A stretch of 25,256 nucleotides of DNA, taken from a virus. Positions 873 through 11,615 of the stretch are shown here, in pieces (the first letter of the stretch is position 1; each line of letters starts with the position of its first letter). The notes under the pieces were generated by a model. It was not told the origin of the DNA. It saw only the letters and a list, made by a program, of their open reading frames with translations, and did not search any database. Where the stretch lies: positions 1-25,256 of the IMG/VR virus record IMGVR_UViG_3300041809_003498; one strand, 5' to 3'. A program made the position numbers and the translations under genes.

Positions 873-999
873 AAGGTGATGACGAACCTCCGTTAGCCGA
901 CGCTGATTTGGCCCAAGTTGCGAGCGCATGGGCCACACTCCCCCAACACATTCGCGCCACAATTCTCACGCTGGTCAACTCGGCCAAGGAGGCCAAGCG

Positions 1000-3606
1000 A
1001 TGACCAGCACCCCGCACAAACCGACTCCTTCGGCAACATGCCATCCTCAAGAGGGCCGGGATAAGAACAAGATTCATGCCGAGAACATCCCGGTATGTCT
1101 CAAGCAACTGCCCCGATGGGTCTGCTGGCGGTACGAGAATCACGGCAAGCCCAAACTGGACAAGGTTCCTATCGACCCCAAGACCGGCAACCGGGCCAGC
1201 AGCACGGACCCGGCGACATGGACGACGTTTGAGGAGGCGTTGGCGACATTCCAGCAGTCTGACGATCTGGACGGAATCGGCTTCGTGTTTGCCGCCGGCG
1301 GCGGCGACTGCGGCGTGGACTTAGACAAGAGCATCGACCCGACAACGGGGCTACTCAAGCCGTGGGCTCGACAGTTTGTAGACCAATTGAATTCCTACAC
1401 GGAGATTTCACCGTCCGGCACAGGGGTTAAGGTTTTCATCCGTGCATCCAAACCGGGCGACCGCTGCCGAACGGCATATCAGGACGGCGAGGTTGAGATA
1501 TACGACTCTGGCCGATTTTTCACCGTAACGACGCAACGGATGGACGGACTCAGCGCCGCTGTCGAGGAACGCCAGGCACAACTTGAAGAGATATACGCTA
1601 CCGTCTTCGGCGATTCCAAGCCCGCCAGCAAGTCGCAACCTCCGCCGCCGACAGGCCAGGCGCCAGCGATCAGCGATGACGAAATTATCAGATTGGCCTG
1701 TTCCAGCCGCAAGCTCGGCGCGAAGTTCACGGCGCTGTGGGCTGGGCAATGGGAGAACCGCTTCACTTCGGCCAGCGAAGCCGACTCGTCCCTGGTCTTC
1801 ATGTTGGCGTTCTACACCAAGGACGCGGCCCAGCTTGACCGCATCTTTCGGCGGTCGGGCCTGAAACGGGACAAATGGGACGAACAGCGCGGCGAGAACA
1901 CCTATGGCCAGGAGACGATCCGCAAGGCGCTGGAACTCGTGACCGAACAGTACCAGCCGCGGAAGAAAGACCGCAAGCCGCCAGTCGGCCCAGCATTACC
2001 CTCCGTGCCGGCAAACGGGAACCTGCCGCAGATTATCATCGATAATATCCAACTTAGCGACCTGACGGCCGCGGGAATAAACGCCCTTCGACGCGCGAAC
2101 GTCCCGCCCATCATTTTCGTACGCTCCGGGGCGTTGAGCCGCGTGACCCCGGACGAAAAGGGCCAGCCCGCAATCGAGCAGGTCGATAAGGCGAAATTGC
2201 GGGCGCGGCTCACCGTCGTGTCCGTGTTCTTCAGCATCGGCAAGAAGGACAATCTGGTCGGCACGAATCCGCCCTTGGCCCTGTGCGAGAATATCCTGGC
2301 CCAGGGAGCGTGGCACTTCCCGCCGCTGATTGGCGTGGCTCGCTCGCCGATCCTGCGCCGCGACGGCACGATCTGCACGAAACCTGGATATGATGCTGAG
2401 TCGCAACTCTATTATTGGCCCGACCTCGGACTGGTCGTTCCGCCGATTCCTAACAACCCCTCCGTCGATGAAGTGAAGGTAGCCAAGGGTGCCCTTATCG
2501 ACCTGATAGTGGAGTTTCCGTTCGCGGACGCCGCCGGCATCCCCAATGCCATAGCTATCCTGCTGACGATCCTCATGCGCTCGGTTATCTCCGGGCATGT
2601 GCCCTTGGCCATCGTGGACGCGCCGTTGCAGGGCACCGGCAAGACGTTGATGGTGACGGTCTTGGGCATAGTCGCCATCGGCCTCGTTTGTGGGGAGTCG
2701 ATTCCCGACAAGCAGAATGCCGACGAGTGGCGGAAGAAGATCACATCGGTGTTGTTGAAGGGTATGCCGTTGGTGCTGTTGGACAACGTGCCCGACAACA
2801 GCACCATCGACGCCCCGCCCCTAGCGGCAATGTTGACGACGCACATATGGTCCGACCGCATCCTGGGCAAGACAGAAAGTGTACAGTTACCCGCCCGGTC
2901 GGTATGGGTCGCCACCGGCAACAACCTCCGAGTCGCCGGCGATATGCCCCGGCGCTGTTACACCATCCGCATGGACGCCAACACGGAAAAGCCATGGACG
3001 CGAACTAAATTCAAGCACCCCGACATCGAGGAATACGCGGTGACCAACCGTGGCCGTCTCCTGGCCGCCGCCTTCACCCTGATCCGCGCCTGGTATGCCG
3101 CGGGCAAGCCCAAGGCCAATGTGCCAGCCTTCGGCAGCTTCCAAGAGTGGGCAGACACCATCGGCAGCGTGCTGGCGCACGCGGGCATCAAGGGATTCCT
3201 GGCCAACCTCGACGATGTGCGGGCCATCCAGGACGAAGACACGCTCCAATGGCAGGCGTTCTTTGCCGCCTGGTGGAACTTGTTCGCCGAGCGTACGAAG
3301 ACGGCGGATGATATCGCCCAGCGCATTCTTGAGGACAAGATGCACAGCGACATTCCCTTGCCTGATACCCTGCTGGTCAATCTGGACAAGGGGGATGGTG
3401 CGCTGAAGCGTTCTCTTGGCCATAACCTATCCCGCCTGACGGGGCGCCTCTTCGATGGGCGCAAGCTGTGCGACGCGGGCACGGACGCGCATCGCAAGGT
3501 GCGCACATGGCGATTGAGCCCTCAAAATGGGTCGATTCCGGGGGGCGCAACCCCGCTATCCCCGCACAACCCCGCAGCTAACCCCGCAGACGGAGGCGAG
3601 CAATGA
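1000..3606 (+). CDS. Primase-polymerase / P-loop ATPase replication protein
   Basis: The start is the ATG at 1000 rather than upstream in-frame codons: AAGGAGG at 986-992 lies 7 nt before it, and it overlaps the preceding stop. This gives 868 aa. The N-terminal ~190 residues match archaeo-eukaryotic primases of the NrS-1/prim-pol type: GVDLDK with metal-binding D107 and D109, SPSGTGVKVF near 137-146, and EIYDSGRFFTVTT near 166-178. A proline-rich linker follows. The C-terminal half is a P-loop ATPase: Walker A APLQGTGKT (K548), Walker B LVLLDN (D595), then a sensor-like ATGNNL...GDMPRR region. The inferred role is primer synthesis and helicase loading or unwinding at the phage origin, acting in the cytoplasm on DNA. 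The C-terminal tail carries asparagine/proline-rich repeats because it overlaps the AACCCCGC array. Confidence 0.85.
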   Translation: MTSTPHKPTPSATCHPQEGRDKNKIHAENIPVCLKQLPRWVCWRYENHGKPKLDKVPIDPKTGNRASSTDPATWTTFEEALATFQQSDDLDGIGFVFAAGGGDCGVDLDKSIDPTTGLLKPWARQFVDQLNSYTEISPSGTGVKVFIRASKPGDRCRTAYQDGEVEIYDSGRFFTVTTQRMDGLSAAVEERQAQLEEIYATVFGDSKPASKSQPPPPTGQAPAISDDEIIRLACSSRKLGAKFTALWAGQWENRFTSASEADSSLVFMLAFYTKDAAQLDRIFRRSGLKRDKWDEQRGENTYGQETIRKALELVTEQYQPRKKDRKPPVGPALPSVPANGNLPQIIIDNIQLSDLTAAGINALRRANVPPIIFVRSGALSRVTPDEKGQPAIEQVDKAKLRARLTVVSVFFSIGKKDNLVGTNPPLALCENILAQGAWHFPPLIGVARSPILRRDGTICTKPGYDAESQLYYWPDLGLVVPPIPNNPSVDEVKVAKGALIDLIVEFPFADAAGIPNAIAILLTILMRSVISGHVPLAIVDAPLQGTGKTLMVTVLGIVAIGLVCGESIPDKQNADEWRKKITSVLLKGMPLVLLDNVPDNSTIDAPPLAAMLTTHIWSDRILGKTESVQLPARSVWVATGNNLRVAGDMPRRCYTIRMDANTEKPWTRTKFKHPDIEEYAVTNRGRLLAAAFTLIRAWYAAGKPKANVPAFGSFQEWADTIGSVLAHAGIKGFLANLDDVRAIQDEDTLQWQAFFAAWWNLFAERTKTADDIAQRILEDKMHSDIPLPDTLLVNLDKGDGALKRSLGHNLSRLTGRLFDGRKLCDAGTDAHRKVRTWRLSPQNGSIPGGATPLSPHNPAANPADGGEQ

Positions 3607-4371: not shown

Positions 4372-4854
4372 GTCGTGAGGAGCGTGTCAGCACACAACAC
4401 AGAACCGTCAGATAGCTGGAATCCGGGATTCTGCCGTATCCGGTATTACTTTCGTGAAGACGCAGGTCTTGTGCCCGATATGGCTCTTGACATCCCAAAC
4501 CATGTGCTCAATTCGGACCACTTCGAGAGCCCCTTTCACAAGATCGCTAGCGCCTTCCCAACATCGTGGGTTAAGGATGTCGCCAGTGTGTATGGCTCCA
4601 AAAGGCGTCTGTCCATCAAAGGAAACCAATACATCATGGCCGCTGCCTGGTTCGTAGATTTCGAGGTAATACTGCACTGGTTTGAATCCGCTCATGACCT
4701 GGTCTCCTGGCTGCAAGGAATCGTGCAAACTATCCACAAGGCTTCTTTCCGAAACCAACTACTCGCGAAAAGAAACCCCACCATGTAGTTAATACTAACC
4801 GAGAAACTGAATACCTACAAGTGGTTCAGTGCCGAAACTGTTGTCGCGGTGATT
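4372..4854. other. Inserted accessory segment between 52-bp direct repeats
   Basis: About 483 bp, visibly richer in A and T than its neighbours, lying exactly between two copies of the ParB gene's 3' end. Without the insert and one repeat, the ParB-like stop would be followed after 4 bp by the radical SAM ATG, the tight spacing seen elsewhere here. No transposase, integrase or terminal inverted repeat is visible. I read it as captured cargo that brought or duplicated the target gene's 3' end. A collapsed tandem gene duplication is the alternative. Confidence 0.5.
4408..4758 (-). CDS. Hypothetical small protein, opposite strand to the phage genes
   Basis: An open frame of up to 116 aa from a TTG at 4758, directly after an in-frame TAG. 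A better start is the ATG at 4695-4693 (95 aa, MSGFKPVQYYLEIYEPGSG), which has AGGAG on the minus strand 8 nt upstream. Composition is protein-like, with many Asp, Gly, Val and Glu and few Trp: YYLEIYEPGSG, VSFDGQTPF, AIHTGDILNPRCW and VEHMVWD-like strands suggest a compact beta-rich fold. I do not recognise a family. It is the only right-hand gene on the minus strand and sits in the repeat-bounded insert, so it behaves like a moron. A plus-strand frame over the same bases (GTG at 4375 to 4788, 137 aa) cannot be excluded. Confidence 0.5.
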   Translation of the reverse strand: MVSERSLVDSLHDSLQPGDQVMSGFKPVQYYLEIYEPGSGHDVLVSFDGQTPFGAIHTGDILNPRCWEGASDLVKGALEVVRIEHMVWDVKSHIGHKTCVFTKVIPDTAESRIPAI

Positions 4855-4906
4855 GCCGAAACCATCCGCTGCCCCAAGTGCGGGCACGAATTCCCCCTGG
4901 AGTGAA
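4855..4906 (+). repeat. 52-bp direct repeat, right copy
   Basis: Second copy of 4320-4371 (51 of 52 identical). Here it is not attached to a full ParB gene; only a short frame without a good start leads into it. Its GGAG at 4899-4902 serves as the SD for the radical SAM gene, 7 nt before the ATG at 4910. The duplication therefore preserved both the end of one gene and the ribosome site of the next. Confidence 0.9.
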
Positions 4907-4909
4907 ACC

Positions 4910-6307
4910 ATGAGCGTCGAAGTCGCCGTCTACGTCCAATCCAAGTACGCCAAGCCCGCCTACACGGTCGAAAGCTACAACGTCCGCGCCTGGCCCGGCC
5001 TGGAAATGATCTGCCATGCTTTGCGTCAAGCCGGGATCGAGGTGGACTACTGCTCATCCGCCACGGCCGGGCGGTACAAGGTCGTGCTGGTGTCCATCAC
5101 GTCCGGCTGCGACTGGTATCCCTTCGTCGGCGAGCGGCTGGGCTGGCCCAAGACCGTCAAGCCGACCATCATCGCCGGCGGCGCGGGCTTGTTGAACGTC
5201 CGGCCGTTCCTCCGATGGTGCGATACCTTCTGCCTGGGCCGGTCGGAGGAGTACGTCGTGCCGGTGGTCCGGGCGGCGCTGGCCGGGGAACGATACGAGC
5301 ACCCCTCCGTCATCCACACGGCCGACTTCGACGTGAACAAGGCGTACACCATCGACGCCGGCGACGGCCTGTATCCGCACGCGGTCCCGCTGGCCAACGG
5401 CAAGACATGGCAGGAATCGGCCTATGGCTGCCAGCGGAAGTGCATGTTCTGCGCGTACACCTGGCACAGGCGGCACGTCGGCGGCCTGCAAAACGAAGCA
5501 GGCGCCGGCGATGTCCTTTGGGGCGGATCGGCAGAGAAGACCATCTTCGAGCTTGACCTCGCCAACCCGGACACGTGGGGCCTGCCCAAGCTGCGGATCG
5601 TGGGCCTCGATGGGTTCTCGGAGCGGTTGCGGCGGATGGTGAACAAGCCGATCACACGCGACATGCTCCGGGGCTTCTTCCGGGGCCTGGCGGCGGCGAA
5701 GGTAGCGCCGAACCACATGAAGATATACAACATCGTCGGCTACCCCACGGAAACCGAGGCCGACTGGTTCGAGTTCCTTGAAGACATTACCGTCGGGGAT
5801 GAAGGCTGGACGAAGATCGATCCCCAATGGGGCATCGAGGTCCACTCCACGCCGTTCCGCCCCATGCCGGCGACGCCCTGCGCGTGCTGGCCGATGAATC
5901 CGACCAACTACCGCGGCCGGATCGTCAAGGTACTCAGCCAGGGCAAGCATCGCGAGTACAAGGGCATTTTCTATCGCGGCAATCGGTTCTGGGCGGCAGA
6001 GAGCCGCGGCACCGAGAGCCTGCCGACGGTCATTATGGACGCCTTGGTGCTTCGCGGCGTGGAAGATGACTCCGAGGTAATCGCCAGCATTGCCACGTCT
6101 GCAAAATTCCGCGGCGCGTCGATGTCGCATAGGGCGGCCATGCTGGAGCGGCACGTCGATGTCGCCCGCCTGTTCGGCGCGTACACCTGGGACACACTGC
6201 CGACGCGGTATCTCACCAGCTACACGGCAACCGACAAACTGAAGGGCATGGACACCGTGGCGCGTGAACGGGCCGGCAAGCCATGGCCGGGAAGTGAGGG
6301 CGCTTGA
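4910..6307 (+). CDS. Radical SAM protein with an N-terminal B12-binding-like region
   Basis: The start is the ATG at 4910 (465 aa), with GGAG 7 nt upstream; upstream in-frame codons fall in the repeat. The [4Fe-4S]-SAM motif is CQRKCMFC at 174-181 (CX3CX2C). Residues 1-150 look like the Rossmann-type B12-binding half of cobalamin radical SAM enzymes (AWPGLEMICHALRQAG, VVLVSITSGCDW, PTIIAGGAG), but I see no DxHxxG motif, so cobalamin may not be bound. Strands such as KIYNIVGYPTET continue the SAM barrel. Radical SAM enzymes cut SAM to a 5'-deoxyadenosyl radical; the substrate here is unknown. Its place between a ParB-like gene and the terminase suggests modification of phage DNA or of a packaging component, which is speculation. 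Confidence 0.75.
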   Translation: MSVEVAVYVQSKYAKPAYTVESYNVRAWPGLEMICHALRQAGIEVDYCSSATAGRYKVVLVSITSGCDWYPFVGERLGWPKTVKPTIIAGGAGLLNVRPFLRWCDTFCLGRSEEYVVPVVRAALAGERYEHPSVIHTADFDVNKAYTIDAGDGLYPHAVPLANGKTWQESAYGCQRKCMFCAYTWHRRHVGGLQNEAGAGDVLWGGSAEKTIFELDLANPDTWGLPKLRIVGLDGFSERLRRMVNKPITRDMLRGFFRGLAAAKVAPNHMKIYNIVGYPTETEADWFEFLEDITVGDEGWTKIDPQWGIEVHSTPFRPMPATPCACWPMNPTNYRGRIVKVLSQGKHREYKGIFYRGNRFWAAESRGTESLPTVIMDALVLRGVEDDSEVIASIATSAKFRGASMSHRAAMLERHVDVARLFGAYTWDTLPTRYLTSYTATDKLKGMDTVARERAGKPWPGSEGA

Positions 6308-6492
6308 GCGAGGAACTGGACATCCGGTCCCTGTCGGTCACGGCCGCGGCGAAGCTGCTGAAGGTGCAGGCCAAGACCGTCCGCGAACAGATCCGCCGTG
6401 GCCTGCCGCTGGTGGGCGGCAAGGTTGACTTGATCGTCTACGGGGCCTGGCTCAACCGGCAGGAGGAGCGAAAGAAGGCCAATGGCGCTTGA
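6304..6492 (+). CDS. Small HTH protein in the small-terminase position
   Basis: 62 aa from a TTG start overlapping the preceding TGA (TTGA). Residues 10-34 (LSVTAAAKLLKVQAKTVREQ onward) form a MerR/excisionase-type helix-turn-helix, followed by a short wing (GGKVDLIVYGAWLNRQ) and a basic tail. It overlaps the large terminase gene by 11 nt. Lambda gpNu1 carries a similar winged HTH at its N terminus and recognises cos DNA. This protein is much shorter than gpNu1 and would lack the terminase-contacting part. Small terminase subunit is the likeliest role by position; an excisionase-like regulator is the alternative. Confidence 0.5.
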   Translation: MSEELDIRSLSVTAAAKLLKVQAKTVREQIRRGLPLVGGKVDLIVYGAWLNRQEERKKANGA

Positions 6493-8716
6493 CCCCAACA
6501 AGCTGAGCCGGAACGAACTCGTCCAGCTTCTCAATTCGACGGGCATGGGCGAGTGCATCACGCGCGGGCGACTCAATTCGCAGATGAACCGCTCCGGCCG
6601 GCGCTGGCATGACGGGCGGAACATCCGGTTGCTGGACTATCTCCGCTGGCTGGTCCGCGAAGTCGAACGGCCGGCCAAGGCACGGATCAACGGCCGCGCC
6701 GCGGACCTTGCCCGCAAGAACACGGACACCTGGCGAAGCCAGAACGTGGCGCCCGTGCCCGATGTTGTCGATCCGATCCGCCGGGAGCGGGCCGTAGCGA
6801 GCTTCCGTTTCTTCTGCGAAACGTACTTCGCCGCGGCGTGCAGCCGCGCGTGGTCGGAGGACCACCTTCGCGTCATCGACAAGATCGAGCGGGCGGTGAA
6901 GGAGGGCGGCCTGTTCGCCTTCGCCATGCCGCGAGGCTCGGGCAAGACGACCTTGGCCCGGCTGTCGGCTCTGTGGGCGGTCCTGGGCGGCTACCGGCCG
7001 TTCGTGTGTCTGATCGGCGGTTCCCAGGACCGGGCGATTGAACTGCTGACCCCCATCCGCAAGGCCATTCTGGAAAACCCGCTCCTGCTGGCCGACTTCC
7101 CCAAGGCGGTTCACCCCTTGCGGAAGCTCCAGAACAACGCCCGCCGGCAGATCGGCCAGCACATCGACGGCAAAGCCACTTACTGCACCTGGGCGACGGA
7201 CAAGCTGGTGTTCCCGACCGTCGAGGGCTCCGAGTCATCCGGGGCGATCATCGCCGTGACCAGCCTGGATTCCAACATGCGCGGCCAGCAGCACACCACG
7301 ATGGACGGTCGGACCTTGCGCCCGTCGCTAGTCCTTCTTGACGACCCCCAGACCCGCCAGTCGGCCCGCTCGCCCTCCCAGACCCGCTACCGGCTCCAGC
7401 TTCTCACTGGCGACGTGCTGTGCATGGCCGGGCCGGGGGAGTCCATCGCGGCGGTGCTGACATGCACAAAGATATACGCCGGCGACCTGGCCGACCAAAT
7501 CCTTGACCGGCAGAAGAATCCCGAGTGGCAAGGCGAATGCACCAAGCTCGTCTATGCCTTCCCCGTTAACGAAAAGCTCTGGGACGAATATGCCCGCTTC
7601 CGCGCCGAGGGGTTGCGGACGGGCAAGGGCCTGGCGCCCGCCACAGAGTTCTACGCGGCCCGCCGCGAGGCAATGGACGCCGGGGCCGTCGTCGCCTGGC
7701 CGGAACGGTTCGACCCCAAGACGGAGGTATCCGCAGTGCAGCACGCCATGAACTTGAGGCTCCGGGACGAGGAGGCCTTCGCCGCGGAATACCAGAACGA
7801 GCCGGTATCGGAGCAATTCGAGGAAGACCGCCTCATCGCCGACGACGTGGCCGGAAAAACCAACGGGCGCCCTCGCGGCGAAGTGCCGCAGGCGGCAACC
7901 CGCGTTACGGCCTTTATCGATGTGCATGACAAGCTCTTGTTTTGGTGCGTCTGCGCATGGGAGGAAGACTTCACCGGCTACATCATCGACTACGGAACTT
8001 TCCCCGACCAGAAGCGGTCGTACTTCACCCTGCGGGACGCCACGCACACGCTCGCCGCGTCGTTCCGTGGGGCAGGCCGCGAGGGCGCTATCCAGGCCGG
8101 CGTGGAGAAGCTGGCCACGGATTTACTGGCCCGGACGTGGACGCGAACGGACGGCGCGGCGCTCCAGATCGAGCGGCTACTGATTGACTCTGGCTATCTG
8201 CCGGCGGTATGCAACGCCGTGGCGATCAAGGTGGGGCCAGCGGTGCTGCTGTCGAAGGGCATGGGCCTCAAGGCAGGCAACAAACCAATGGCGGCCTACA
8301 CGCGCCGGCCCGGTGAGCGCTACGGCTTCAACTGGTACATTCCAAACGTCTCGCGGTCAAGTGAGTTCCGGCATATCGCCTTCGACGCGAACTCATGGAA
8401 GAGTTTCGTCCACGCCCGGCTCGCGACCACCGCGGGCGACCCAGGGGCGATGACGCTGTTCGGGAAGAAGCCCGAACAGCATCGGCTCTTTGCCGAGCAC
8501 GTCGCCGACGCGGAAACCTACGTCGTCACCGCGGGCCAGGGCCGGACGGTCCACGAGTGGCGGCCCAAGCCGTCCAAGCCGGACAACCATTGGTTCGACT
8601 GCCTGGTGGGCAACGCCTGCGCCGCGTCCATGCTGGGCGTAAATCTTCCGGGAATGAAGCCCCTTGCCGATGAACGCAAACCCCTCAAGCTGTCCTCTTT
8701 GATACGGAGGTCGTGA
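6482..8716 (+). CDS. terL: Terminase large subunit
   Basis: 744 aa; AGGAGGAG at 6461-6468 precedes the ATG. The packaging ATPase has Walker A MPRGSGKTT (K155) and Walker B LVLLDD (D287, D288), then a coupling region (PSQTRYRLQLLTGDVL). The C-terminal RNase H-like nuclease shows acidic candidates in FIDVHD (D480), LLIDSG (D569) and DNHWFDC (D706); the last resembles the C-terminal signature of the GpA family used by lambda-type phages. Role: ATP-driven translocation of DNA into the prohead and cutting of the concatemer at the portal. It is long for a terminase and has no frameshift. Its neighbours (HTH upstream, lambda-type portal downstream) agree, although an accessory block separates it from the portal. 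Confidence 0.92.
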   Translation: MALDPNKLSRNELVQLLNSTGMGECITRGRLNSQMNRSGRRWHDGRNIRLLDYLRWLVREVERPAKARINGRAADLARKNTDTWRSQNVAPVPDVVDPIRRERAVASFRFFCETYFAAACSRAWSEDHLRVIDKIERAVKEGGLFAFAMPRGSGKTTLARLSALWAVLGGYRPFVCLIGGSQDRAIELLTPIRKAILENPLLLADFPKAVHPLRKLQNNARRQIGQHIDGKATYCTWATDKLVFPTVEGSESSGAIIAVTSLDSNMRGQQHTTMDGRTLRPSLVLLDDPQTRQSARSPSQTRYRLQLLTGDVLCMAGPGESIAAVLTCTKIYAGDLADQILDRQKNPEWQGECTKLVYAFPVNEKLWDEYARFRAEGLRTGKGLAPATEFYAARREAMDAGAVVAWPERFDPKTEVSAVQHAMNLRLRDEEAFAAEYQNEPVSEQFEEDRLIADDVAGKTNGRPRGEVPQAATRVTAFIDVHDKLLFWCVCAWEEDFTGYIIDYGTFPDQKRSYFTLRDATHTLAASFRGAGREGAIQAGVEKLATDLLARTWTRTDGAALQIERLLIDSGYLPAVCNAVAIKVGPAVLLSKGMGLKAGNKPMAAYTRRPGERYGFNWYIPNVSRSSEFRHIAFDANSWKSFVHARLATTAGDPGAMTLFGKKPEQHRLFAEHVADAETYVVTAGQGRTVHEWRPKPSKPDNHWFDCLVGNACAASMLGVNLPGMKPLADERKPLKLSSLIRRS

Positions 8717-8916
8717 TGAACGACGAGAGAACACCACTGAAGCTAAGTGAGCTTTCCGGCGACCGCGATGAGCGCGGATTGATCTGCAAGAAATGCGGGT
8801 GCAGGGACCTGCGGGTTATCTACACGCGGGATCGCTTCGGTGGCCGCCGTCGCAAACGGAGGTGCCGGAACTGCGGGCACGAAATGTGGACGATGGAACG
8901 CCTGCCGGCGTCGTGA
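8716..8916 (+). CDS. Small zinc-ribbon protein, NrdR-like zinc domain only
   Basis: The chosen start is the ATG at 8716, sharing its A with the terminase stop; ACGGAGG at 8704-8710 lies 5 nt upstream (a GTG at 8713 would be too close). 66 aa. Four cysteines in CKKC (C24, C27) and CRNC (C50, C53) enclose a basic hairpin RVIYTRDRFGGRRRKRR and end in GHEMWTME. This matches the zinc ribbon at the N terminus of NrdR repressors, but the ATP-cone is absent. It also recalls small phage Ogr/Delta-type zinc activators of late genes. DNA binding is likely; its target is unknown. Confidence 0.65.
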   Translation: MNDERTPLKLSELSGDRDERGLICKKCGCRDLRVIYTRDRFGGRRRKRRCRNCGHEMWTMERLPAS

Positions 8917-8973
8917 AAGCAGCCAAGAGCGAGGCTAAGCCTGGGGACAAGTCCAATTCGCGGGCGGTCTGGC

Positions 8974-9006
8974 GCACCTGGAATAGTCTGGCACCTGGAA
9001 TAGTCT
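8974..9006 (+). repeat. Tandem 16-bp direct repeat at the left edge of the accessory block
   Basis: GCACCTGGAATAGTCT occurs at 8974-8989 and again at 8991-9006, one base apart. It lies in the non-coding interval between the zinc-ribbon gene and the 675-aa gene, about 115 bp before the latter's start. A tandem operator or a footprint of an insertion are both possible. Confidence 0.7.
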
Positions 9007-9043
9007 TGTGGAAACGACGATGCGCGGTTAAATTATGAAAACT

Positions 9044-9062
9044 GCTGATGACGGTCATCAGC
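9044..9062. promoter_or_regulatory. 19-bp perfect palindrome, operator-like
   Basis: GCTGATGAC-G-GTCATCAGC is a perfect 9-1-9 inverted repeat, 58 bp upstream of the ATG at 9121. No T-run follows, so it is not an intrinsic terminator. Spacing and symmetry fit a dimeric HTH repressor. The surrounding DNA is AT-richer (GGTTAAATTATGAAAAC just upstream) and may hold the promoter, though I cannot assign convincing -35/-10 boxes. Confidence 0.6.
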
Positions 9063-9120
9063 GACATATCATTGTGGAAATGTCGGATTACTCGGGAGAT
9101 GCGGGCGAAGGAGTCTCACT

Positions 9121-11148
9121 ATGGCCATTCAGGGAACGGAAATCCCGAACGTGAGTGCTGGGGGGTTGGTAACGGTTGCCTTCCTAAAAGCGCGCCTAGA
9201 TGAAGGGAGCGACCATCTCGGTATCTTTGAGCCTCTCGTATCGAGTGCCGTCGCGCAGATCCGCGATGCAAGCTTCGTTACCGAGCAAATACAGGAAGCC
9301 ATCGCGGCTTCGCATGGGGTTGCTATGCCGCAAGCAACCGTGGCAACACTGCTAAGGAGAGCCACAAGAAAGGGATATCTTATCAGGGAGCATGGCCGGT
9401 ATAAGCGCAATCCGAGTCGCCCTGTCCCATCATCGAACCTCGCGGCCGAGAAGGCTAAAGTGGAGGGAGATCTGACCAAGCTGGCAGAGGCCCTGCAGAA
9501 ACATGCCGAGAAGCGAAAGCTGCTCATTCCGTCGCCAGCTGCCGCTCTCGACTTGCTGTTTCAGTTTCTCGAGAAGGAACAGGTCGCGATCCTATTAGGG
9601 AGCATTCCAGAAAACAAGGGAGGGTCCGAAGCAGCACAACGTGCCCACATAATCATAGCAGACTTCCTAAGACAGGTAATCGGTAGCGACCTAGGACTTG
9701 AATCCGTGCTTCGCGCGGTACTTGAAGGCCTGGTCCTCTACCATGCCGCTTTCTTGCCGGAACTGGCCTCCATTAAGCATGATTTCAATGGCCTACGGGT
9801 AGCTTTCGACAGCACGCTGGTTCGGCAGGCGCTAGGCTACGATGGCACCGCTATGTCGGCTCTTATGCGCGAGACGCTGGGGCTGCTAGACGCCAGCGGT
9901 GCGCGGTGCTTCGTCTTTGACGATACGATAGCCGAAATCAGGCGTATCCTCGCGGCGTACGAAGCGAACTTGGGAACAACACAGGGCCGGCAGCGGCTGC
10001 GCCCGACAGCGATGGCACGACACTTTCTCACCCAGCGGTATACCCCAAGCGACATGCGAGAGATGTCAGCGCTTCTGGAAAGAGACATTCTGGCAGCCGG
10101 CTTCACGATTCAGCAGACCCCTTCACATGTCGCGGAGTTCACCGCAAGCGAGGAGAGATTGGCCAGGAGATTGGCGGACCCGCATACGAAGGATGAAACA
10201 CTGCCGAGGGTCATACACGATGTAAACTGCGCCGCCGCTGTCCTTACGCTGCGGAAGGGCCATCGGTCTTCGACCCTTGATGACGCTCGTGCGATACTCG
10301 CGACCTCCTCAGTTCTCCTCGTCCAGAATACGCGGCTCTGGTGGGCCGAGGACGAGAAAGAAACAAGTATACCACCGGTAGTTCACGCGAGGGCTCTGAC
10401 TAACTTGGCTTGGCTGAAGAAACCCGCAATCAGTGCTGGTTTCAAAATTCGCGAACTGGTGGCGATGTGCGCGGCTGCACTCCGCCCGTCTCCCGAAACG
10501 TGGCGTCGCTTCCTTCAACACCTCGAATCGCTGCAAAGCTCCCACAGGATCAGCTCCGACGAAGCCGCAGCGATCGTCGTATCGAGCATGTCCGACCAAC
10601 TGCTTATCGAGGCCGAAATGGCGGAGGATCCCAGAGATATTGATGCAACCACACTTGATGATATCGTAGAGCGCGTAAAAGCTTCCTACGGGGCCAAAGA
10701 GAAAGAGCTGAAGAAGGCCCACGAAACAGAGCTGTCAGCGGCTGAAGCAGCACAGCACTCGCTGGCTGAGCACATCCGACAAAAAGAACTGCGTATCAGA
10801 GCAGTAGCTAGGAGGTGTGCTGAGATCGTAACATACGGCGTTCAATGGTCCACAGGCATTCTCCTTCTCATCGGTGCATTAGGCCTAATGACGGGCCATC
10901 CATGGCACGCCGGCATTGTCGGAGTCACAATCGGGGTCGGCATTGCAATCTTCGTGTTAGTTGAGCTGCTCCAGATCCTTGGCCATGTGCGAGATTTACG
11001 CGTTAGGATGCAGGCGTACTTGGAGAATCGTGTGCGTACCTGGCTTGGCGGCGATTCGGGCGCATCAAGTATTTCAGCTGTTGACGGCGCGGCGGCACCG
11101 GACAAAGAACCCGACAAGACGCCCAAGACTCACGATAGCACCCGATGA
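9121..11148 (+). CDS. Winged-helix / PIN-like nuclease / transmembrane protein, candidate defence or exclusion cargo
   Basis: 675 aa; GAAGGAG precedes the ATG. I read four parts. Residues ~50-97 look like a winged helix (ATVATLLRRATRKGYLIRE). Residues ~222-405 resemble a PIN nuclease: LRVAFD with D230, FDDTIAEIRRIL with E272, IHDVNCAAAVLTLR with D367, and VLLVQN with N403 at the fourth acidic site. Residues ~515-560 are a charged coiled coil. Two transmembrane helices follow at about 574-592 and 597-619, then a polar tail. PIN domains usually cut RNA; an N-terminal sensor and a membrane anchor recall abortive-infection or exclusion proteins. Base and codon use are AT-richer than the phage genes, and it interrupts the terminase-portal order, so horizontal cargo is likely. 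The PIN call rests on motif reading only. Confidence 0.6.
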   Translation: MAIQGTEIPNVSAGGLVTVAFLKARLDEGSDHLGIFEPLVSSAVAQIRDASFVTEQIQEAIAASHGVAMPQATVATLLRRATRKGYLIREHGRYKRNPSRPVPSSNLAAEKAKVEGDLTKLAEALQKHAEKRKLLIPSPAAALDLLFQFLEKEQVAILLGSIPENKGGSEAAQRAHIIIADFLRQVIGSDLGLESVLRAVLEGLVLYHAAFLPELASIKHDFNGLRVAFDSTLVRQALGYDGTAMSALMRETLGLLDASGARCFVFDDTIAEIRRILAAYEANLGTTQGRQRLRPTAMARHFLTQRYTPSDMREMSALLERDILAAGFTIQQTPSHVAEFTASEERLARRLADPHTKDETLPRVIHDVNCAAAVLTLRKGHRSSTLDDARAILATSSVLLVQNTRLWWAEDEKETSIPPVVHARALTNLAWLKKPAISAGFKIRELVAMCAAALRPSPETWRRFLQHLESLQSSHRISSDEAAAIVVSSMSDQLLIEAEMAEDPRDIDATTLDDIVERVKASYGAKEKELKKAHETELSAAEAAQHSLAEHIRQKELRIRAVARRCAEIVTYGVQWSTGILLLIGALGLMTGHPWHAGIVGVTIGVGIAIFVLVELLQILGHVRDLRVRMQAYLENRVRTWLGGDSGASSISAVDGAAAPDKEPDKTPKTHDSTR

Positions 11149-11478
11149 CATGTCAAGACGGAGCGTTGCGCAGAGATTTTCCGCTCCGTGGAGATCTGGG
11201 CTAAGAGAATTTAGATGGCGTTGGCTTCCACGCTGGCTTGGAACGTATGCACTCAAAAGATCATTCGCGGCGTCTCGTGAGTCTAAGTCACGCAACGGTT
11301 ACTATATGATGTTGTCCTAATAAGAACGATAACGGGGAGAATCATGCAAACGAGTAAAGGGGTCTTATATGTCTTCCGAAACGCAAATGATTACATTAGT
11401 GTAACTTGCTCTCGATTCTTCCCATAGTTTTCCATGCTATTGGCCCTTGATTTCCGTTTATAGTAGTAGCCGCAGGAA
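11149..11478. other. Low-GC interval with no convincing gene
   Basis: About 330 bp follow the 675-aa gene. A 56-aa arginine- and tryptophan-rich frame (ATG 11150 to 11320) has no SD and looks accidental. An imperfectly supported hairpin (ACGGAGCG at 11158-11165 with CGCTCCGT at 11182-11189) lacks a T-run. The only frame with a ribosome site is the 27-codon one at 11344. The DNA resembles the accessory block in composition, so I place the block's right edge here or just after. Confidence 0.4.
11344..11427 (+). CDS. Possible 27-aa leader peptide or gene remnant
   Basis: ATG at 11344 with GGGGAG at 11334-11339, 4 nt upstream; ends TAG at 11425-11427. The product, MQTSKGVLYVFRNANDYISV followed by TCSRFFP, has no family I know. 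It lies ~50 nt before the hairpin series ahead of the head genes, where a leader peptide would sit, but a truncated gene end from the accessory block is equally likely. Confidence 0.25.
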   Translation: MQTSKGVLYVFRNANDYISVTCSRFFP

Positions 11479-11549
11479 CCGGGCAGTGCCCGGCAAAACC
11501 AAAGACAGCCCAAAGGAACGGTAGGCATACCGAGCCTTCGGAGACGAAG
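11479..11549 (+). ncRNA. Hairpin series, candidate structured leader RNA
   Basis: Three perfect small stems lie in a row. CCGGGCA-G-TGCCCGG is at 11479-11493; with a 1-nt centre it needs a larger loop as RNA, or is a DNA palindrome. CGGTA-GGCA-TACCG is at 11519-11532. CTTCG-GAGA-CGAAG, with a GNRA tetraloop, is at 11536-11549. The terminator hairpin begins 2 nt later and the next gene starts 67 nt later. Stacked stems, a GNRA loop and a terminator are the architecture of riboswitches and attenuators. I tried to match known classes (c-di-GMP, SAM, cobalamin, guanidine) and could not. Confidence 0.4.
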
Positions 11550-11550
11550 C

Positions 11551-11597
11551 AAACGCCAGTCGAATCGTGCACGACGATCCGGCTGGCGTTTTCTTTT
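11551..11597 (+). terminator. Rho-independent terminator upstream of the head genes
   Basis: Stem AAACGCCAG (11551-11559) pairs with CTGGCGTTT (11583-11591) as 9 perfect pairs. The 23-nt loop contains the palindrome TCGTGCACGA. The T-rich tail TTTTCTTTT runs from 11589 to 11597. Polarity is plus strand. It ends 18 bp before the ATG at 11616, leaving no room for a promoter between, so late transcripts must read through it, or it acts as an attenuator. It also insulates the head genes from accessory-block transcription. Confidence 0.8.
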
Positions 11598-11615
11598 GGG
11601 CTTGGGAGCTTTGTT

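Follow-up and report, generated by a model that had tools for sequence, protein, structure and literature searches.

PrrC is a tRNA nuclease that its type I restriction enzyme keeps silent until a phage anti-restriction peptide sets it free (PMC2610378). SNIPE, an inner-membrane-tethered nuclease encoded by one gene, cuts lambda DNA during injection and becomes toxic if its membrane segment is removed (PMC13190303), and DS-3 (DefensePredictor) is a single-protein PIN defence system that needs its catalytic residues (PMC13092281). Here we describe a gene from a virus record of 25,256 bases (the window, by which we mean the whole stretch of DNA analysed) whose 675-aa product shares traits with each of these systems. 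Like DS-3, it is predicted to be a one-protein PIN nuclease with no antitoxin, although the PIN domain of DS-3, by its description, is split between the N and C terminus, whereas that of the window protein is central (residues 225-427) and contiguous save for an insertion. Like SNIPE, it is encoded by a single gene and would combine a nuclease with an inner-membrane tether, using a PIN domain, a winged helix and a C-terminal hairpin where SNIPE has GIY-YIG, DUF4041 and one N-terminal pass. It resembles PrrC and RloC as a lone RNase-type effector, but its family has a PIN domain instead of the PrrC/RloC nuclease with its R-x3-E-...-H motif, and the ABC ATPase domain typical of those proteins was not seen: a search of seven members gave no ATPase family at a significant level (best AAA_11, E 0.23). 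VapC and FitB share its fold and acidic triad at about 130 aa, compared with 675 aa here; the window protein adds a winged helix, a coiled coil and a membrane hairpin around a central PIN domain with a helical insertion, and the loci inspected had no conserved neighbour to match the adjacent small antitoxin gene by which VapBC is recognised. We consider it probable that a tailed phage acquired this gene independently as cargo and that its product, from a family without a name, is a solitary PIN-fold endonuclease anchored at the membrane; most likely it serves as an abortive-infection effector against phages. We found no description of an RNase-type fold and a membrane anchor in one chain in the literature searched.

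The gene is intact, with an ATG start and an AGGAG motif 8 nt upstream (Table 1). A gpA-type terminase gene and then a small zinc-ribbon gene (6482-8916 for the two together) precede it, and a lambda-type portal gene lies downstream. Its GC content is 0.567, compared with 0.634 +/- 0.019 for the other 2,028-bp stretches of the window (below 384/384), and its GC3 is 0.61, compared with 0.75-0.88 in the eight other window genes checked, in agreement with a first-pass annotation that had called it AT-richer. Using the portal protein as a query, we collected ten virus contigs related to the window phage. L022, L024 and L025 lack the cargo gene, with no more than some 100-250 bp separating the zinc-ribbon region from the portal leader; L021 and L023 carry other ORFs upstream of the portal leader, both without a Pfam match, on contigs that end on the left and leave their terminase side outside view. 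Because the terminase-portal gap is empty or filled with unrelated genes in related phages, we regard it as a variable cargo locus of this phage group, which could be mined for further systems. The first-pass annotation had also stated that the gene breaks the terminase-portal order as independently acquired cargo, and both the interrupted order and the foreign origin hold, given the low GC and a slot that is empty or differently filled in relatives. Its description of the carrier as a prophage found no support, as no tRNA was found and no integrase was recognised among the checked ORFs of this virus contig.

The position of the gene directly ahead of the portal operon could also be that of a phage-encoded regulator or RNA-processing factor for the phage's own late operon, mobile as a normal accessory gene. 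This reading is highly improbable, since related phages do without the gene, its composition is foreign, and its family also occurs on plasmids and in a restriction operon. Other genes of these phages may be of separate interest. The ORFs in the gap of L021 (557-1096; 180-213 aa, with a HEAGHE metallopeptidase-like motif) and the 117-aa ORF in that of L023 (240-590) are candidate cargo unrelated to the window gene, and elsewhere in the window we noted a replication protein that contains an NrS-1 polymerase helix-bundle domain (928-3606) and a phage-borne radical-SAM-like gene whose matches fall below the Pfam cut-off (4853-6307).

Table 1. Coordinates of the cargo gene, its protein features and the flanking elements in the window.
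Feature	Position	Strand	Basis
Variable cargo slot, zinc-ribbon gene to portal leader	8917..11506	+	Comparison with L021-L025
Upstream regulatory segment	8966..9086	+	74% over 121 bp common to L025, there preceding a different gene
Palindrome GCTGATGAC-G-GTCATCAGC, operator-like	9044..9062	.	Perfect 9+1+9; counterpart at L025 2481-2499
Lone gene, 675-aa winged helix - PIN - coiled coil - membrane hairpin protein	9121..11148	+	ORF; homologues covering 70-82% of length; alignments A1, A7
N-terminal winged helix, residues 31-96	9211..9408	+	AlphaFold2 model; winged-helix structural matches
PIN (VapC-like) nuclease domain, residues 225-427, helical insertion about 285-360	9793..10401	+	PIN-segment model; PIN structural matches
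D230, predicted catalytic, end of first strand	9808..9810	+	Invariant 12/12
E272, predicted catalytic	9934..9936	+	Invariant 12/12
D367, predicted catalytic	10219..10221	+	Invariant 12/12
T395, end of third strand, T-x-N motif	10303..10305	+	T invariant, N397 at least 90%
Coiled-coil stalk, about residues 509-566	10645..10818	+	Single long helix, low-confidence model; charged helical sequence
Two C-terminal hydrophobic segments, about 574-593 (borderline) and 599-617	10840..10971	+	Hydropathy
Structured RNA element, right edge of slot, phage backbone not cargo	11507..11602	+	Six-phage comparison

A full-length AlphaFold2 model (pLDDT 61, four input sequences, with the stalk and membrane part poorly modelled) supports the winged helix that had been proposed from sequence: structural alignment matched Fur/Zur/MarR/IclR-type winged helices with Z 8.6-10.5 over 65-73 aa, and VIA-align aligned residues 27-103 to those of the Fur/Zur type. 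The central region, which the first-pass annotation had called PIN-like and suggested checking by structure prediction, was modelled alone as residues 215-440 (pTM 0.79), and the Rossmann-like alpha/beta/alpha PIN fold was present in both models. PIN domains made up almost the whole set of top structural matches for the segment alone (Z up to 11.2 over 127-146 aa), the best being VapC, FitB, minimal RNase P (HARP) and SMG6 (Z 8-11), together with Rrp44, and the fold follows VapC along its whole length at Z about 11 (3zvk_B, Z 11.0-11.5 over 132-133 aa; Z 11.5 over 132/133 aa by VIA-align for residues 225-424 of the full-length model). With Foldseek alone, neither model had a match below E 0.001 (best E 0.03), and a sequence search of solved structures returned chance matches only. 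Since the Foldseek E-values are weak, we base the PIN assignment on the second-look alignments, the order of secondary structure, weak PIN_3 matches in two homologues and the conserved triad.

PIN folds are known in DNA nucleases as well as in housekeeping RNases, and the fold is no guide to whether RNA or DNA is cut. The main alternative to an abortive effector is DNA cutting at the membrane as a form of direct immunity, in which a membrane-held nuclease would cleave incoming phage DNA at injection, with the winged helix binding DNA and no suicide of the cell. A membrane anchor joined to a cytoplasmic nuclease is the plan of SNIPE (PMC13190303), an N-terminal winged helix suits DNA binding, and the DNA nucleases Exo1 and FEN1 are among the low-rank structural matches. 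We nevertheless think this alternative unlikely, as the best structural matches are RNases, no DUF4041 or GIY-YIG was found with Pfam, and the hairpin lies at the opposite end of the protein from the single pass of SNIPE.

The catalytic core had been proposed to consist of D230, E272, D367 and N403. The three acidic residues are conserved throughout the 12 aligned homologues of alignment A7, in which residue conservation was counted, and N403 is not; as for a fourth polar or acidic site residue, T395 is invariant and N397 nearly so, the latter position being Ser in the window protein. This invariant PIN triad suggests catalysis. The proposed coiled coil is supported by a long helix in the model, at low confidence, and by a charged helical sequence. 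As for the two C-terminal membrane helices, the hydropathy threshold picks out two segments in 13/17 members and one in 3/17, including the window protein, whose first segment falls below that threshold and is borderline; the hairpin itself is supported. A weak NCBIfam match to SLATT_4 (E 8e-5) in one of the 12 members of A7 hints that the C-terminal hairpin may be related to two-helix defence effectors. Such effectors are common in defence, and the two-helix part could itself be the real effector, disrupting membranes in a SLATT-like manner, with the PIN domain and winged helix as its sensor. This is the least probable of the readings considered here: only one member has the match, the hydrophobic segments are poorly conserved in sequence across the family, and the invariance of the triad points toward catalysis.

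The 675-aa protein falls under no family of Pfam, NCBIfam, PADLOC or PHROG, consistent with the earlier remark that no named system was known to have this architecture. The window protein had no named full-length model above cut-off in these four collections, its homologues gave isolated weak matches only, and PADLOC matched none of 12 members convincingly; a name may exist beyond these four collections. Full-length homologues are 15-23% identical to the window protein. By tblastn, they were found on plasmids of Klebsiella, Pantoea, Arthrobacter, Enterococcus, Hymenobacter and Sporosarcina, with a fragment in Listeria, all annotated 'hypothetical protein', and we found no mention of homologue accessions in the literature. 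The plasmid carriers belong to four phyla, Pseudomonadota, Bacillota, Actinomycetota and Bacteroidota, and include clinical isolates; phages carry members of the family too. In the tree, the Klebsiella plasmid gene and the gene of a P2-like phage in IMG/VR are close sisters, from which we infer that the gene moves between plasmids and phages; branches are long, and the window protein is not firmly placed.

Homologues are rare, being present in 2/5,426 complete E. coli genomes and in 3/398 and 4/395 genomes of two samples, each count including the genome on which the sample was centred. A pattern search seeded with the window protein found no relative among the candidates from viral and genome collections, as expected of a method that reaches only close relatives, and the divergence of the full family alignment was too high for patterns. 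Nor was a relative found among viral contigs with the Enterococcus and Hymenobacter queries, or among GenBank phages by tblastn with the window or E. coli protein. Examination of homologue contexts, the other check that had been suggested, showed rare accessory genes, most of them carried by mobile DNA or placed in defence loci, and not housekeeping genes; plasmid and phage collections bias the homologue sample toward mobile DNA, and among the genome-scan matches alone, 4/7 were in mobile or defence loci. Chromosomal copies without an obvious island occurred in Kluyvera and in two further genomes (G010 and G249). Two divergent relatives of 625-627 aa, matched mainly in the N-terminal half, possibly form a second subfamily: one (L038 9335-11218) adjoins an integrase, and the other (L039 8656-10533) adjoins an S24/HTH repressor and lies about 6 kb from an integrase.

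Several homologues occupy loci linked to defence. One of the two E. coli copies, WP_204691543.1 of FDAARGOS_1337, belongs to a P2-like prophage and is flanked there by the genes for tail sheath FI and tail fibre assembly, the exact fun(Z) slot of P2, where it is transcribed against the late genes; this locus is reported as a second defence-enriched site (PMC9519451). The window family has no sequence similarity to fun(Z) itself, and homology to P2 Fun(Z) was rejected (BLASTP E 4.6, hhalign probability 0.2%). The other E. coli copy adjoins late-control D in a P2-like prophage remnant, an arrangement repeated in the IMG/VR contig. In Salinibius halmophilus, the homologue is found within a type I restriction operon, in the order hsdM-hsdS-[gene]-hsdR (identities by PADLOC), overlapping the 3' end of hsdS, and hsdR starts 1 nt past its stop codon. 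PrrC shows the same linkage to type I restriction (PMC2610378), a likeness that applies to the Salinibius homologue and not to the window gene, most members of the family being unlinked to restriction genes. The Sporosarcina homologue is near a CBASS-like cluster of cyclase, E1-E2, JAB and SAVED genes, and that of Hymenobacter is beside type III restriction genes together with TIR and CHAT genes. No conserved neighbour or partner gene was present across the loci inspected. Small ORFs downstream of the gene in Pantoea, Hymenobacter and E. coli are unrelated and were rejected as a partner or antitoxin.

The protein could instead be a solitary, autoregulated addiction gene, a VapC-like toxin with its own winged-helix regulator that would stabilise a mobile element and have no antiphage role. 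Its VapC-like fold and fused winged helix, its frequent carriage on plasmids, the missing partner gene and a palindrome upstream of the window gene would all suit such a toxin. The first-pass annotation had assigned the gene its own operator-like site; the palindrome is perfect, but the segment that holds it also occurs in L025, where the palindrome is kept imperfectly upstream of a different gene. As the same region precedes another gene there, the palindrome is not tied to the 675-aa protein. Toxin-antitoxin genes would also leave the restriction-operon and fun slots unexplained, and we judge this reading quite unlikely. A scan for the palindrome core found no copy beyond the window and L025. 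Upstream of the palindrome, a 16-bp tandem repeat (GCACCTGGAATAGTCT) occupies 8974-9006, and a similar pair is present in L025.

For the abortive-infection effector that we favour, we propose the following mode of action. The C-terminal hairpin would anchor it at the inner membrane, and the coiled coil would determine its oligomeric state. In uninfected cells the PIN site (D230, E272 and D367, with a divalent metal) would be kept inactive, either through the helical region and N-terminal winged helix or through a contact made at the membrane. An infection cue would free it, as might losing a partner, for instance a restriction enzyme. The PIN domain would then cut tRNA, rRNA or mRNA, as the analogy to VapC and PrrC suggests, and the infected cell would cease to produce phage. 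With identity to known homologues of at most 23% over the alignment, the function of the window protein may have drifted. More tentatively, these membrane-tethered winged-helix PIN nucleases could form a portable immune module across phyla, serving phages in superinfection defence, residing on plasmids, and acting within type I operons as a counterpart of PrrC, a backup when restriction is blocked; on balance we hold this broader view to be possible without favouring it. The members in the P2 slot and in the restriction operon offer ready, testable laboratory versions. Current defence annotation overlooks solitary defence genes for which no family model exists.

The terminator said to follow the gene was not confirmed: no intrinsic terminator was found on the plus strand, and the hairpin and T-run near 11600 belong to an RNA element of the phage that is also present in relatives without the cargo gene. 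This element lies just upstream of a 76-aa gene and the portal, and has relatives at L021 1272-1371, L022 7634-7732, L023 870-974, L024 684-779 and L025 7140-7236. Three hairpins are enclosed by a closing stem, one of them nearly invariant (CTTCGGAGACGAAG). Across the six phages, 88.9% of cells pair and compensatory changes occur in 20/40 pairs; 0/500 shuffles reach any measure, and slid controls collapse. Rfam gave nothing at gathering score. The fold of the window copy has a z of -7.0, and the element could be a late-operon leader, an antiterminator or a packaging RNA.
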